A DNA stretch of 46,191 bases, taken from NCBI GenBank assembly GCA_947087275.1, contig CAMUBZ010000007.1:1-46191 (forward strand). The letters run 5' to 3'. Position numbers and translations under genes: made by a program. Below, piece after piece: positions 3,233 through 44,515 of the stretch. The notes below the pieces were generated by a model. That model saw only the letters and a program-made list of their open reading frames with translations. It did no database searches and had not been told where the DNA came from. This DNA is from an uncultured Candidatus Saccharibacteria bacterium. Its GTDB lineage: Bacteria; Patescibacteriota; Saccharimonadia; Saccharimonadales; Saccharimonadaceae. Position 1 is the stretch's first letter. Each line of letters begins with the position of its first letter.

Positions 3233-3637
3233 ATGGATATTTTAACAATTATTGGAAGAAGAAGTAAAAGGGCAAAGTTATTGCAGAAAGCGGGCGTTTC
3301 ACTGGCATTAGCGAATCTGGGAGTCGAAAAGGTTATTGGACAGGATCCTAATACAGTCTATGACCTCGTTATATATCAATCACCGTTCCAAATGCAATTC
3401 CAACCATTGGGGAGTGACTATGTACTGACTGATGGAGAAGCACAATATCGCGTGGTGGGTGGCAGGCTGACTGTTACTATAATCAATGCTCGATGGGTAG
3501 CACGGCCAACCGGTGCCCACGTTGTGCTCTTTACGGAAATGGATAACATGCATGCTGCGACTGCTATCAGGGGTTGGTTTAGGAAAAAAGGCAGAAGTAT
3601 CAAGCGACTTGGTTTTCCGGCATATAACTTACCTTAG
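3233..3637 (+). CDS. orphan small protein, cassette B
   Basis: A 134-residue protein that I do not recognise. ATG 3233 is preceded by AGGAGGGG at optimal distance, which rules out the longer frame from 3173 because that would start inside the leader hairpin. It has no signal peptide or membrane helix. The N-terminus is basic and helical (about 1-35); the middle is rich in beta-type residues, and the C-terminus is very basic (RGWFRKKGRSIKRLG), which would suit nucleic-acid or membrane-surface contact. It is a single-gene unit with its own promoter (3097-3125) and terminator (3677-3708). Confidence 0.7.
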   Translation: MDILTIIGRRSKRAKLLQKAGVSLALANLGVEKVIGQDPNTVYDLVIYQSPFQMQFQPLGSDYVLTDGEAQYRVVGGRLTVTIINARWVARPTGAHVVLFTEMDNMHAATAIRGWFRKKGRSIKRLGFPAYNLP

Positions 3638-3676
3638 GGCGCCCTTGCTACGACTTCTCAAAACTGTATATCTATT

Positions 3677-3708
3677 AATCCTCCAGCCATTGCGGCCGGA
3701 GGATTTTT
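3677..3708 (+). terminator. intrinsic terminator of cassette B
   Basis: AATCCTCC (3677-3684) pairs with GGAGGATT (3698-3705), with inner GCC/GGC, followed by a T run. Confidence 0.85.
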
Positions 3709-3712
3709 ACTG

Positions 3713-3718
3713 TATAAT
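3713..3718 (+). promoter_or_regulatory. -10 box for uvrA
   Basis: TATAAT ends 10 nt before ATG 3729; there is no ribosome site, so the mRNA is probably leaderless or nearly so. Confidence 0.6.
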
Positions 3719-3728
3719 ATATATACTG

Positions 3729-6728
3729 ATGAACGACAACTATATCCAAGTCCGCGGTGCGCGGCAACATAATCTCAAGGACCTCGACGTCGACATTCCA
3801 CGTGATAAGTTGGTGGTAATTACTGGCCTTTCAGGCAGTGGCAAGTCGAGCCTGGCTTTTGATACGATTTATGCCGAAGGCCAGCGCCGCTACGTAGAGA
3901 GTTTGTCGAGCTATGCGCGCATGTTCTTGGGCGTGATGGATAAACCAGATGTGGATAGTATTTCTGGCCTCTCGCCAGCGATTTCGATTGACCAAAAGTC
4001 CACCAGTCGTAACCCGCGCTCGACCGTGGCCACCGTGACCGAAGTATATGATTATCTGCGCCTTTTGTTTGCGCGCGTTGGTGTGCCGCATTGTCCGATT
4101 TGTCACCGCGAAGTTTCACGCCGCAGCGTGGAAGACATTGTGAATGAAGTGATGAAACTGCCGCTCGGTAGTAAATTGATGCTCCTTGCTCCAATCGTGA
4201 GCCAGAAAAAGGGTAGTTTTATGCACGTTTCGGAGCAGTATCAAGCCAAAGGTTTCTCGCGCGTGCGGGTGGATGGCATCGTCTACGCACTAGATGAATT
4301 TCCAGAGCTCAACAAAAACGATCGCCACGATATCGAAATTGTGGTTGATCGGTTTATCCTCTCTCCCGACTTGCTGAGCCGGATCTCTGGCTCGATCGAA
4401 CAGGCCCTCGAACTTGGTCAGGGAATTATCAAGCTGCTCAAGATTAACGACAATTCAACCACGATTGAGACGCGTGGAATTGGGCAACTCGACGCCTCTA
4501 TGCGAGAGGGTGCGGAGGCTACGGCCGAGCATGCAGCGCGCGAAGCCCGTGACGACGGGCCTGAGCGACGCGTCTCTCGCGGAGATGGCATCAAGTTGCC
4601 CAATGGTGATGGGCTTTATACGTTCTCCCAACGTTACGCCTGTGAACTCCACCCTGATGAACTCATCCCAGAACTCGAGCCACGCCTGTTCTCATTTAAC
4701 GCTCCACAAGGTGCCTGCCCCACTTGTACTGGTCTGGGTACACGCATGGAAATCGACCCAACCTTGGTTTTGAATCCTAATTTAACGATTGCGGAAGGTG
4801 GTATCCGCCCATTCAATCGTATCACACAAGAGTCTTGGTGGCTCAAGCGCCTCACGGCTGTGGGCGAAAAGCATGGTTTCTCGGTGCACGTGCCAATTCG
4901 CGATCTTTCTGAAGACGCGATTCAAAAGATTCTTTACGGCACCGGTGACGAAAAATATAAAGTAGACGTGGGTGGCCACGGTAAATGGGGTGACGGTGCT
5001 ACTTACCAGTCTACGTATGAAGGTGTGATCCCTACTCTAGAACGTCGCCACCGTGAATCCGAAAGTGAGTTTATCAAAAAAGACATCGAGCGCTTTATGC
5101 GTGTGCATGAGTGCCAGACTTGCCATGGTGCACGGCTCAAACCGGTAGTACTAGCCGTCACGGTGCATGGCCTGAGCATCGTCGATATGTGCAATCTGGA
5201 TGTCGACGCTACGTTAGAAGTTCTCAATGGCGATTTGGAATTCTCCGAAAGTGAGGCTATGATTGCCGGTCCGATTCTCAAAGAAATTCGTGAGCGTGTG
5301 CAATTCATGCAAGATGTTGGTCTTGGCTATCTTGAGCTTGGTCGTGCCGCCAACACGCTTTCTGGAGGTGAGGCACAACGCATTCGCCTGGCCACGCAAA
5401 TCGGCTCTGGTCTCCAGGGCGTGCTTTATGTGCTAGATGAACCCAGTATTGGTCTACATCAGCGTGATAATGATAAATTAATCTCCACTCTCAAACATCT
5501 ACGCGATCTCAAAAACACCGTGCTGGTAGTGGAGCACGATGAAGACACGATGCGAGAGTCGGATTATATTATTGATATCGGTCCTGGAGCCGGTAAGAAT
5601 GGCGGTCGCTTGATGGCGGCTGGCACACCAGATGAAGTAGCAGCTAACGATGATTCGCTCACGGGCAAATACCTCTCCGGCAAACTTACAATTCCAGTGC
5701 CCAAAAAACGTCGTACGCCCAAGAAAGACCAAGAATTAGTGGTTTATGGTGCACGCGAGAATAACCTCAAAAACATCAACGTGCATTTCCCGCTTGGGGT
5801 GATGACGGTCGTATCTGGCGTTTCTGGATCCGGCAAGTCGACGCTTGTGAATGATATTTTAGCCAACGAACTTCTGGCGCGTTTGCACCGTGCGCAAACC
5901 GTTCCTGGAGCGCACGATAAAATCGATGGAATTAAGTATCTCGACAAGGCTATTGTGATTGACCAATCTCCAATTGGGCGCACCCCACGTTCTAATGCTG
6001 CAACCTATACCGGTGTATTCAACCAAATTCGTGAACTTTTTGCCAAACAACCCGAAGCCGAACTCCGTGGCTATAAGGCTGGGCGGTTTAGTTTTAATGT
6101 CAAAGGCGGACGTTGCGAAACTTGCCAAGGTGATGGCGTCAATAAGATTGAAATGCACTTCTTGCCCGATGTCTATGTCACTTGCCCCACTTGCCATGGC
6201 AAACGCTATAATCGTGAGGCGCTTGAAGTTAAGTATAAGGGTAAGGACATTGCTGAAGTCTTAGACATGACTATCGACGAGGCTGTGGAGTTCTTCGAGA
6301 ATATCCCTGCCATCGCGCCCAAACTCAAGACCATTCAAGAAGTGGGGCTAGGCTATATCAAACTCGGTCAGCCTGCTACTACTTTCTCAGGTGGTGAGGC
6401 ACAGCGTATCAAACTCGCCACTGAGCTCTCGCGCCGTAGTACCGGCAAGACTCTCTATATTCTTGACGAGCCAACTACAGGCTTGCACACTGATGACGTC
6501 AAACGCCTACTCAGTATTCTTGGGAAGTTAGTGGATGGCGGTAACTCCATGATTATTATCGAACATAACTTACACGTGATTAAGTGCGCAGACTGGATTA
6601 TTGACATGGGCCCCGAGGGTGGCTTACATGGTGGCCAAGTAGTAGCCGAGGGTACCCCAGAACAGCTGGCTCAGCGTTCAGATACACCAACAGGGAAGTA
6701 TCTAAAAGAAATTCTCGCGCAGAAATAA
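3729..6728 (+). CDS. uvrA: excinuclease ABC subunit A
   Basis: UvrA, the damage-sensing ATPase of nucleotide excision repair, 999 residues (E. coli 940). Both ABC modules are intact: Walker [11 protein letters not shown] (about 33-42) and [10 protein letters not shown], signatures [14 protein letters not shown] and [13 protein letters not shown], and Walker B segments [10 protein letters not shown] and [10 protein letters not shown]. Zinc cysteines are seen in [25 protein letters not shown] and CPTCHGKR. About 26 residues near 258-284 do not belong to the family: they are encoded by a palindromic repeat (4502-4580) that also occurs at 31028-31117. It falls in a loop before the FSQRYAC zinc region, so the protein may tolerate it. 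ATG 3729 begins the usual [11 protein letters not shown] start. Confidence 0.97.
4502..4580 (+). repeat. palindromic element, copy 1, in frame inside uvrA
   Basis: The ends are inverted repeats GCGAGAG (4502-4508) and CTCTCGC (4574-4580). Inside are hairpins GGC/GCC (about 4517-4526) and GCCCGT-GACG-ACGGGC (4545-4560). The core is about 94% identical (4 differences in about 65 bp) to 31041-31105. It adds a multiple of three and no stop; at least four of the six frames stay open across it. In uvrA it encodes an Ala/Arg/Glu-rich stretch that UvrA homologues lack. Confidence 0.85.
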
Positions 6729-11663: not shown

Positions 11664-11891
11664 GATTCTCAAGATCGGCACCTCCGCGGCGCATACAACC
11701 CAGCGGAGGGGGAGACCGTTGTAGCGATTGTTCGGGCCATACGACGGGCGCGACTCAGTAGCATTAAACTCAAACCAGTAAGACAGCGTCGACGAGGTAG
11801 GAGAAGTACGCGACGACCACTCGTAGCCAATGTTGCCAGCGTTCCTGAAAGTACCAGCAGTATTTGCCGGATTGACGTGCCCGCTGCGCAC
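11660..11891 (-). pseudogene. FISUMP-type C-terminal fragment (copy 1)
   Basis: On the minus strand, from GTG at 11891, the frame reads RSGHVNPANTAGTFRNAG, then GYEWSSR, GPNNRYNGLPLRW: the end of a Fib_succ_major (FISUMP) domain, a family of secreted lectin-like surface domains. The rest of the gene is missing; upstream the frame is soon closed, and the normal stop seen in copy 2 (after GVPIF) is lost here. Copy 2 at 44064-44288 shares about half its residues. It may be a broken gene or a silent cassette. The region 11892-12156 holds the paired leader element (12030-12110), no gene. Confidence 0.65.
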
Positions 11892-12135
11892 GAACCCGTA
11901 CCGCGCCCTTCTCTGAGCTTAGGAATGACAACTGATGACAAACACCACGGTCATTGGTAAAGAGGTTTATTTCATTGTAATTACAGCCATAACCATAATC
12001 ACATCTATCCTTTCGTTTTCTTTACATTTTCAAGGCAAACCTCACGATCTTTGACTGAAGACCGCTGGTGAGCGGAGGAGCGAACTCGGCTACCTTTGGT
12101 GTCCATGGACTATCATTATCCACAAAAATATTGTA
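11665..12135 (-). repeat. composite dispersed repeat, copy 1
   Basis: Two blocks match 44070-44510 in the same order and spacing: the FISUMP C-terminal block, and about 140 bp away a leader block (12044-12110) with hairpin CCGCT-GGTG-AGCGG and the conserved sequence around CCATGGAC. On the minus strand a TACAAT box (about 12131-12136) precedes an ATG and this block, so it looks like promoter, 5' region and 3' end of a gene whose middle was deleted in both copies. Confidence 0.7.
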
Positions 12136-26927: not shown

Positions 26928-26995
26928 TTGACATTTTAGAAATTGTGTGCTACAATGGAACTAGGAGATAATTCTAATTCCGCTCCTGAAGTACC
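26928..26995 (+). promoter_or_regulatory. cassette promoter F with 5' hairpin
   Basis: TTGACA 26928-26933, 17 nt, TACAAT 26951-26956, then 5' hairpin AGGAG/CTCCT (about 26963-26990). Confidence 0.85.
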
Positions 26996-30628: not shown

Positions 30629-31837
30629 CTATTTCTTCCTTAAAACTATTATTTCTCTGGCTACAACTTGCTGATCGCGATGATACAGCAAATCTTTTTG
30701 TCCCAGATTTCTAAAACTCTTTACATTATAGCCCAGATTTTTAATTTCGTCAAGCAAATTTAAGCGTTCATATTCGCCGTTTGGTCGTAGCCAAGCTGGT
30801 ACGGCTATCACCACAGGTGTATCAGACTCAATTTGCCCAGACAAATTTTTGAGAAACCCGAGTACGATGCTTCCGCACTCTTGCTTCTCTTGCTTTAACT
30901 TAATCTCGGCTGGTGGTAGTGACATTGGCTGACCCAAATATCCCTCGCATGCCACCGCATCAATCGGTGATGTCCACTGGAAATTCGTCGCATCACCTTG
31001 AGCGACTGCGAAGGTAGCGTCTGTAGCCTTTGTCTGGGGGGGTGCGGAGGCTGCTGCCGAGCATGCAACGCGCGAAGCCCGTGAAGACGGGCCTGAGCGA
31101 CGCGACCCCGGGCAAAGCGCTACAGGCGTTACGGTCTGCAACCACTCAAGGTTTTTCCGGCTATATTCCACCATCCGCTCGCTCACATCTGTCCCATACG
31201 GCACATATCCTATCAACGCCGCCTCTTGCAGCACTACACCGGTTCCACAGAATGGATCCAACAAACGGCTGTGATCTGGCAAATCTCCGCACAAGTTAAT
31301 TAAAATCTGTGCCAACTTGGGCGGTAGCATACCAACTTTTGCGTCACGCGCTGGACGTGCTTGGTCGCGTTTTACATACGCATCGATATTCTGCACGCCA
31401 ATCACGCGATAATATTTTTTGCCGTATTTTACTAACTCAATTTTGTTATCATCAAACAAATGGTTATGAAAACTCGTTGCGCTTGAAAGCGTTGCGGACT
31501 TATTAGGTACCACGCGTACGCTATGGCCCAACTTTGTTAAAATTCGTTTGATTTTTAAGGCCTCACCTTGAGCCCTAAATGCAGTTGCTCCCCGTGAGTA
31601 ATCCGATACACCTATCGTCAGTTTACCTTTATCCGGTAAACTTTTGAGAAAATCTTGTAAATTCACCTCGATCTGTACTGCTAATTTTTGCGTGCCACCC
31701 AAACGCCGAATATCCAGAACACTTTTTGCCTCAAACTCTGCTAATTCTGCTCCCACAGGTTGGACATTATCAAACAAACATTCCAACTCAGCCAGAGAAA
31801 TTTTAGGCTGGCGCCCCAGCACGGCAAGATATTTCAT
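30629..31837 (-). CDS. THUMP/UPF0020-type RNA methyltransferase
   Basis: 402 residues. N-terminal THUMP-like domain (about 1-150), then a class I methyltransferase with motif I LLDPFCGTGVVLQEA (about 192-206), as in Trm11/RlmL-type guanine-N2 methyltransferases. The motif IV position reads VACEGYLGQPM instead of D/N-PP-Y, so catalysis may differ. About 30 residues near 241-270 (rich in Arg, Ser, Ala) come from the palindromic element also present in uvrA, in the opposite sense. It is followed directly by rpmA. Substrate (tRNA or rRNA) is not resolved. Confidence 0.8.
   Translation of the reverse strand: MKYLAVLGRQPKISLAELECLFDNVQPVGAELAEFEAKSVLDIRRLGGTQKLAVQIEVNLQDFLKSLPDKGKLTIGVSDYSRGATAFRAQGEALKIKRILTKLGHSVRVVPNKSATLSSATSFHNHLFDDNKIELVKYGKKYYRVIGVQNIDAYVKRDQARPARDAKVGMLPPKLAQILINLCGDLPDHSRLLDPFCGTGVVLQEAALIGYVPYGTDVSERMVEYSRKNLEWLQTVTPVALCPGSRRSGPSSRASRVACSAAASAPPQTKATDATFAVAQGDATNFQWTSPIDAVACEGYLGQPMSLPPAEIKLKQEKQECGSIVLGFLKNLSGQIESDTPVVIAVPAWLRPNGEYERLNLLDEIKNLGYNVKSFRNLGQKDLLYHRDQQVVAREIIVLRKK
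31028..31117. repeat. palindromic element, copy 2, in frame inside a methyltransferase gene
   Basis: Base stem CTTTGTCTGGGG (31028-31039) with CCCCGGGCAAAG (31106-31117), 12 pairs including two or so G-U. Inner hairpins GGC-TGCT-GCC and GCCCGT-GAAG-ACGGGC. The core matches copy 1 with four differences, but the base stem is different in sequence. It is read antisense relative to uvrA and again keeps the frame. Confidence 0.85.
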
Positions 31838-38441: not shown

Positions 38442-38520
38442 TTGACAAAAATGCAAATCTGTGATACAATGGAAGAGATAGGGGCATTTTGCCGCTAGCT
38501 CTTTGGCATGCCCAAAACTG
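38442..38520 (+). promoter_or_regulatory. cassette promoter I with 5' hairpin
   Basis: TTGACA 38442-38447, 17 nt, TACAAT 38465-38470, then GGGCAT-TGCC/GGCA-TGCCC (about 38482-38515). Confidence 0.85.
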
Positions 38521-44033: not shown

Positions 44034-44063
44034 CTACTTTTTGACTATCAGGGCAAATTATTT

Positions 44064-44288
44064 TCAAAAGATCGGCACCCCCGCGGCGCAATCAAGGCAG
44101 CGGAGGGAGAAACCGTTGTAACGATTGTTCGGGCCGTTGGATGGTTTAACCGCTGCTGGCTCCACCTGGAGGTAGTAAGCCGTAGTCGTAGCCGACGGCG
44201 CTGAGCGTGACGACCAGTAAATGCCGTAGGCGCCAGCGTTCCGGAAAGTACCAGCAGTGTTATGCAATTCTACATCACCGCTGCGCAC
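44064..44288 (-). pseudogene. FISUMP-type C-terminal fragment (copy 2)
   Basis: Minus-strand frame RSGDVELHNTAGTFRNAG, GIYWSSRSAP, GPNNRYNGFSLRC with a normal stop after GVPIF: the C-terminal half of a Fib_succ_major domain. As in copy 1 the sequence similarity begins abruptly at GTGCGCAGCGG, and no N-terminal part is present. Conserved residues (GTFRNAG, WSSR, NNRYNG) are kept while the residues between them vary strongly, including at synonymous sites. Confidence 0.65.
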
Positions 44289-44515
44289 GCCAACTGTATT
44301 AAAGCATTAACCAACACCGAATTTGTACAGCGCTAGGTAGGGAAGTTCACTTCACTTTGCCTTGGGCCATGGCCGCAGCAATCTATCCTCTGTCTTTTTT
44401 TACCTCAATCAAAAGGGGAACTTCACGATCTTTGAGTAGAAGACCGCTGGTGAGCGGAGGAGTGAACTCGGGCTTCCTTTGGGCTCCATGGACAAAAATA
44501 TCCACAAACTAATTT
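44070..44515 (-). repeat. composite dispersed repeat, copy 2
   Basis: Same two blocks and spacing as 11665-12135: FISUMP C-terminal block, about 140 bp of unlike sequence, then the leader block (44425-44492) with hairpin CCGCT-GGTG-AGCGG and the CCATGGA start. A TAAAAT-like box follows on the minus strand (about 44513-44518). Confidence 0.7.

Follow-up and report, generated by a model that had tools for sequence, protein, structure and literature searches.

A candidate new family of protein-coding palindromic DNA elements in Saccharibacteria

Palindromic elements inserted in frame in protein genes are best known in Rickettsia, and their movement and persistence are largely unexplored. Short palindromic repeats of the REP/RAYT type are mobilised via hairpins, and mitochondrial double-hairpin elements are small, mobile, GC-rich hairpins without a known enzyme. 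The Rickettsia palindromic elements (RPEs) are palindromes of about 100–150 bp that occur in many copies in a reduced genome and insert in frame in unrelated housekeeping genes, where the extra peptide is tolerated (PMC10969869). In nematomorph mitochondria, inverted repeats lie within protein genes, their arms evolve in concert and both arms are translated (PMC6649704).

The window analysed here is the whole 46,191-nucleotide stretch of contig CAMUBZ010000007.1 (assembly GCA_947087275.1) of an uncultured Candidatus Saccharibacteria bacterium. At positions 31028–31117, a GC-rich core of ~84 nt lies antisense and in frame within a gene for a Trm11-like tRNA m2G10 methyltransferase (30629–31837, minus strand, 402 aa; TIGR01177/UPF0020). 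A covariance model placed this core, a P1-P2-P3 three-way junction, at 31035–31118 of the plus strand (86 bits, E 5.6e-25), and the predicted fold (copy L063) flanks it with locus-specific plus-strand arms at 30995–31034 (left, containing CTTTGTCTGGGG) and 31119–31152 (right), which pair imperfectly with each other. The second copy has its core at 4503–4586 of the plus strand (78.2 bits, E 1.6e-22), in sense within uvrA (3513–6728, plus strand; NCBIfam UvrA equivalog, 1453.8 bits), and its fold (L065) gives plus-strand arms at 4479–4502 (ATTGGGCAACT...GCGAGAG) and 4587–4604 (...AGTTGCCCAAT). Both host genes are open through the element. The two copies are 87% identical across 79 nt (4494–4572 and 31026–31104), which bears out the initial annotation's reading of them as palindromes sharing a core. 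The 12-bp base stem that it described at the methyltransferase copy, CTTTGTCTGGGG/CCCCGGGCAAAG, does pair, through 10 Watson-Crick pairs and 2 T.G wobbles, but it is part of a stem that reaches from 30995 to 31152, far past those 12 bp; the uvrA stem (4479–4604, ATTGGGCAACT...AGTTGCCCAAT) is likewise longer than GCGAGAG/CTCTCGC. The hairpin fold at 31020–31130 is beyond chance: the plus strand folds at -63.8 kcal/mol (shuffled -46.7 ± 3.8; z -4.5), and the minus strand gives z -3.0 against shuffles.

Two other repeated features were seen in the window. A promoter-like consensus, TTGACA-N12-TGTGNTACAAT, has 15 matches with ≤2 mismatches (0.02 expected), for example at 624–652, 26928–26956 and 38442–38470. 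Related segments of ~410–425 bp at 11666–12089 and 44063–44471 show patchy conservation (83% across the initial 82 nt). Each lies near tRNA genes, and on the minus strand the two may encode paralogous ends of proteins.

That the methyltransferase gene stays open through the antisense element, gaining about 30 residues before QGDATNF, was confirmed. Residues 241–273 (window 31117–31019), immediately ahead of QGDATNF, are the insert, and they alone fall below a pLDDT of 50 in an AlphaFold model that scores 90.4 overall and has Trm11 (6zxw) as its top Foldseek match. The inserted segment is missing from many methyltransferase orthologues, and the model suggests that it forms a tolerated, disordered surface loop of ~30 residues. 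Of 169 genomes, about 72 carry an insert at this site and ~97 lack one; nearly all of the occupied genomes keep the frame open. One occupied orthologue (L167, G117:C55:11144-12373) has a single in-frame TAA.

Elsewhere, too, the element was found mostly within the frames of working, often essential genes. Further hosts in the source genome are pheT, argS, der, trmD, gpmI and tatD, and a third copy, recovered by a DNA query of the genome, sits at the def/fmt junction with arms (GGGAGATTTTGC...GCAAAATCTCCC) unlike those of both window copies. Long open frames contain 168 of 219 copies (core in sense in 91, antisense in 77), a count in which "genic" was assigned from the open frame itself, so that the methyltransferase site is the independent evidence for translation. 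When copies from the methyltransferase search were left out, long open frames still held 131 of 178, and in 73 of these the core was in sense. All six frames were seen and five are common, the rare one having a stop in 91% of cores; frame use thus tracks the stop content of the cores. Judged from these frames, about three quarters of copies appear to be read through in frame, sense and antisense alike, using five of six frames. Since both orientations and five frames are used, splicing or cleavage of the segment is not suggested.

The element is abundant and narrowly distributed. With a covariance model derived from 27 copies, we found 23 copies at E < 1e-3 in the 829-kb source genome and at least one in 159 of 174 genus genomes; the highest counts per genome were 26 or more, a lower bound since at most 26 candidates were scored in each. 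A DNA search for the core gave matches in about half of 60 genus genomes. In a sample of the order, 5 of 156 genera were positive, all of one family, and the model detected no copies in this sample outside the genus and a few sister genera of its family. Among 84,980 genomes, all 79 matches to an exact degenerate motif were Candidatus Saccharibacteria MAGs, mostly from ruminant gut. The same exact motif had zero matches in IMG/VR, giving no phage link by motif, and an Rfam scan of the window and four copies returned no relevant match for the element. We did not find a description of the element in Saccharibacteria in the open-access literature.

Apart from its arms the element is 77–92 nt long, and on one strand this core folds as a three-way junction made of a short base stem (P1) and two hairpins (P2 and P3). 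Across 104 matches, P1/P2/P3 cells were paired in 88.7% of cases (76.6% when shuffled), 20 of the 24 pairs in the core had compensatory changes, and covariation scored 0.312, against 0.112 for shuffled and ≤0.080 for slid alignments. A lack of covariation across further copies, which would have counted against the initial annotation's structural reading, was therefore not what we observed. P2 and P3 switch between U-A and C-G with G.U intermediates nearly absent; the best-conserved part is the P3 tip, CCCGT-NANG-ACGGG, and the core strand repeatedly carries tandem G.A mismatches.

The arms behave differently: each site, whatever its core type, has arms of its own, and yet these are complementary. 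The left and right arms of 219 distinct copies had a median pairing score of 37, against 13 when arms were swapped between copies, with a median of 27 paired positions; copies from sister genera (n = 25) gave 30 against 13. The scoring of mismatches gave no advantage to wobble. Pairing kept despite changed sequence, noted initially for the two window copies, is thus a general property. As to where the arms come from, the comparison of L097 with L144 agrees with an inverted duplicate of one native flank (p 0.027), while seven other close pairs do not, and a population-wide test gave an ambiguous signal.

The methyltransferase site shows these changes among orthologues. The 90 orthologues examined include empty sites, cores in either orientation, other cores and naked hairpins. 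In a near relative (G213, 79% protein identity) the core at the same site is inverted (L092 compared with L091). Where orthologous pairs share ≥80% flank identity, 7 of 33 differ in core orientation, and at lower identity about half do. Changes in the arms of orthologous pairs comprised 94 compensated doubles, 53 other doubles and 186 on a single side; both sets of counts come from non-independent pairs, mostly of this one gene. A reading of occupied and empty alignments at 80–90% identity, which was not systematic, revealed no evident target site duplication. Five orthologues (L109, L112, L117, L120 and L165) carry other short, unrelated-looking cores between their arms, which by sequence may represent further element types.

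Together, these results probably describe a dispersed, non-autonomous palindromic DNA element whose arms arise at or after insertion and are kept paired via template switching, and whose core is recognised as a folded strand. The spreading part would be the core of ~70–85 nt, folding on one strand as the three-way junction. It would land for the most part in protein genes, whichever way round and in whichever frame has no stops, and be read as a tolerated loop. The arms would arise at or after insertion, and it is probably template switching between them during replication that chiefly upholds their complementarity, a process that would both homogenise them and invert the enclosed core. Homogenised arms with an inverted spacer are the signature of template switching in coding DNA (PMC8604942), and the process has been proposed as creator and keeper of RNA hairpins (PMC8794818) and as the basis of concerted palindromes in nematomorph mitochondria (PMC6649704). 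A putative mobilising activity may recognise the core as a folded single strand. Apparent absence of SbcCD, judged from SbcD alone, could leave the palindromes unremoved and so act as a permissive condition: no SbcD exceeded the family cut-off in any of 60 genomes of the genus or 119 of the order, whereas the control set gave a match in 13 of 14 genomes. We rejected SbcD loss as the specific cause of the element, since the loss is order-wide and the distribution of the element narrow.

It has to be asked whether the arms are instead a functional part of the host mRNA (a regulatory hairpin, an RNase site or an intron-like or bypassed segment), kept complementary by selection on RNA pairing. The strong covariation, the tandem G.A motifs and, near the core, an excess of G.U over A.C on the core strand would all suit such a role, and the initial annotation had raised selection on RNA or DNA structure. 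In the outer arms, though, the gene strand carries 96 G.U and 86 A.C mismatches; since G.U is not preferred there, this arm pairing is not maintained as mRNA structure, and RNA selection across the whole arm was rejected by this test. Out to ~30 aligned positions, and no farther, the core strand has more G.U than A.C and more A.G than C.T, even where core and gene lie in opposite senses. Constraint thus seems to act on the core and inner stem in the form of a folded strand other than the host mRNA, and the initial annotation's structural reading is narrowed accordingly. With the nearly even split of genic cores between sense and antisense, frames that are open as in translated sequence and the lack of an Rfam match also against it, we regard a function in the host mRNA as distinctly unlikely. 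The excess of G.U and A.G near the core is not explained by template switching alone either. An enzyme-free version of our account would be a selfish hairpin for which insertion, arm formation, homogenisation and flipping are a single template-switching process in bacteria without SbcCD; we consider that version rather unlikely.

The order of events could also be reversed, with the core inserting into palindromes older than itself, as the initial annotation had offered as an option. Some inserting elements favour hairpins, and naked, core-less hairpins do occur at a few orthologous sites (L132, L133 and L150). Empty methyltransferase sites nevertheless have, in 33 of 37 cases, a hairpin potential no better than the rest of their own gene, the sites above that background being L150, L133, L132 and the AT-rich L158. 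The long hairpins of L150, L132 and L133 lie at the insertion site, exceed most true empty sites in length and are probably remnants of core deletion; L150, which adjoins L100, looks by its sequence like a flipped copy minus its core. Orthologues of one site moreover differ in their arms. Insertion into pre-existing palindromes is thus not supported, and we hold it to be very improbable. We give as little credence to the idea that the arms belong to the element itself, each insertion bringing its own from a wide range of divergent element types and nothing being generated or homogenised at the site. Several core types do exist, even at one site, but the arms follow the site and not the core type, and two close relatives (L103 and L104) retain the outer arm sequence of the site while inner arm pairs change jointly.

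Our preferred account, a dispersed element whose arms are shaped at the site, includes a putative mobilising activity, and the candidates we considered were rejected because their distributions do not fit. The Y1 transposase domain (PF01797) and the IS110-family transposase domain (PF02371) are both absent from the source genome (G000), and each was found in 2 of 60 genus genomes. RVT_1 is absent from the source genome with its 23 copies and from four others with 18–25 copies (G003, G036, G054 and G056). Reverse transcriptase domains were seen in 39 of 60 genus genomes, none of them in the source genome.

The element numbers at least 200 copies across about 160 related genomes, and one orthologous site can be found occupied, empty, flipped or core-less. 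This makes it a resource for testing how a hairpin enters a gene, how its arms come to be complementary and remain so, and how a protein absorbs a foreign loop of ~30 residues. Different complementary arms at every site amount to many natural replicates of hairpin invasion of genes. The element also carries a warning: covariation in a stem may stem from DNA-level processes and alone is no proof of a functional RNA.

Among known systems, several classes fit poorly: a MITE, as the element has no conserved terminal inverted repeats (these are conserved only at core-proximal bases, the arms varying by locus); a self-splicing intron or known structured RNA, as no Rfam family matched; an element mobilised by reverse transcriptase, as RVT_1 is absent from genomes with many copies; and an IS110-type hairpin-targeting element, as PF02371 is absent from the source genome. 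REP/RAYT elements offer a likeness in their hairpins, whereas ours is mostly intragenic and occurs without a Y1 transposase in the source genome and in 58 of 60 genomes. Mitochondrial double-hairpin elements, likened here by description only, are mostly intergenic and organellar, unlike the Saccharibacteria element. The coding palindromes of nematomorph mitochondria share the concerted arms but lack a conserved mobile core (PMC6649704), while the arms described here enclose a three-way junction. RPEs are the nearest likeness, as palindromes of comparable size dispersed through the genome and inserted in frame in protein genes. They differ in having a conserved peptide (PMC10969869) where the Saccharibacteria element, sense or antisense, uses five of six frames; that paper does not mention core flips or arms that covary and are specific to the locus. 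No Rickettsia matches appeared when 84,980 genomes were scanned with the exact motif. Since a conserved peptide is lacking and the motif is confined to Saccharibacteria, our best reading is that the element works like an RPE without being one, appears unrelated to RPEs by the tests made, and represents a new, RPE-like family of palindromic, protein-coding DNA elements of Saccharibacteria that are non-autonomous.
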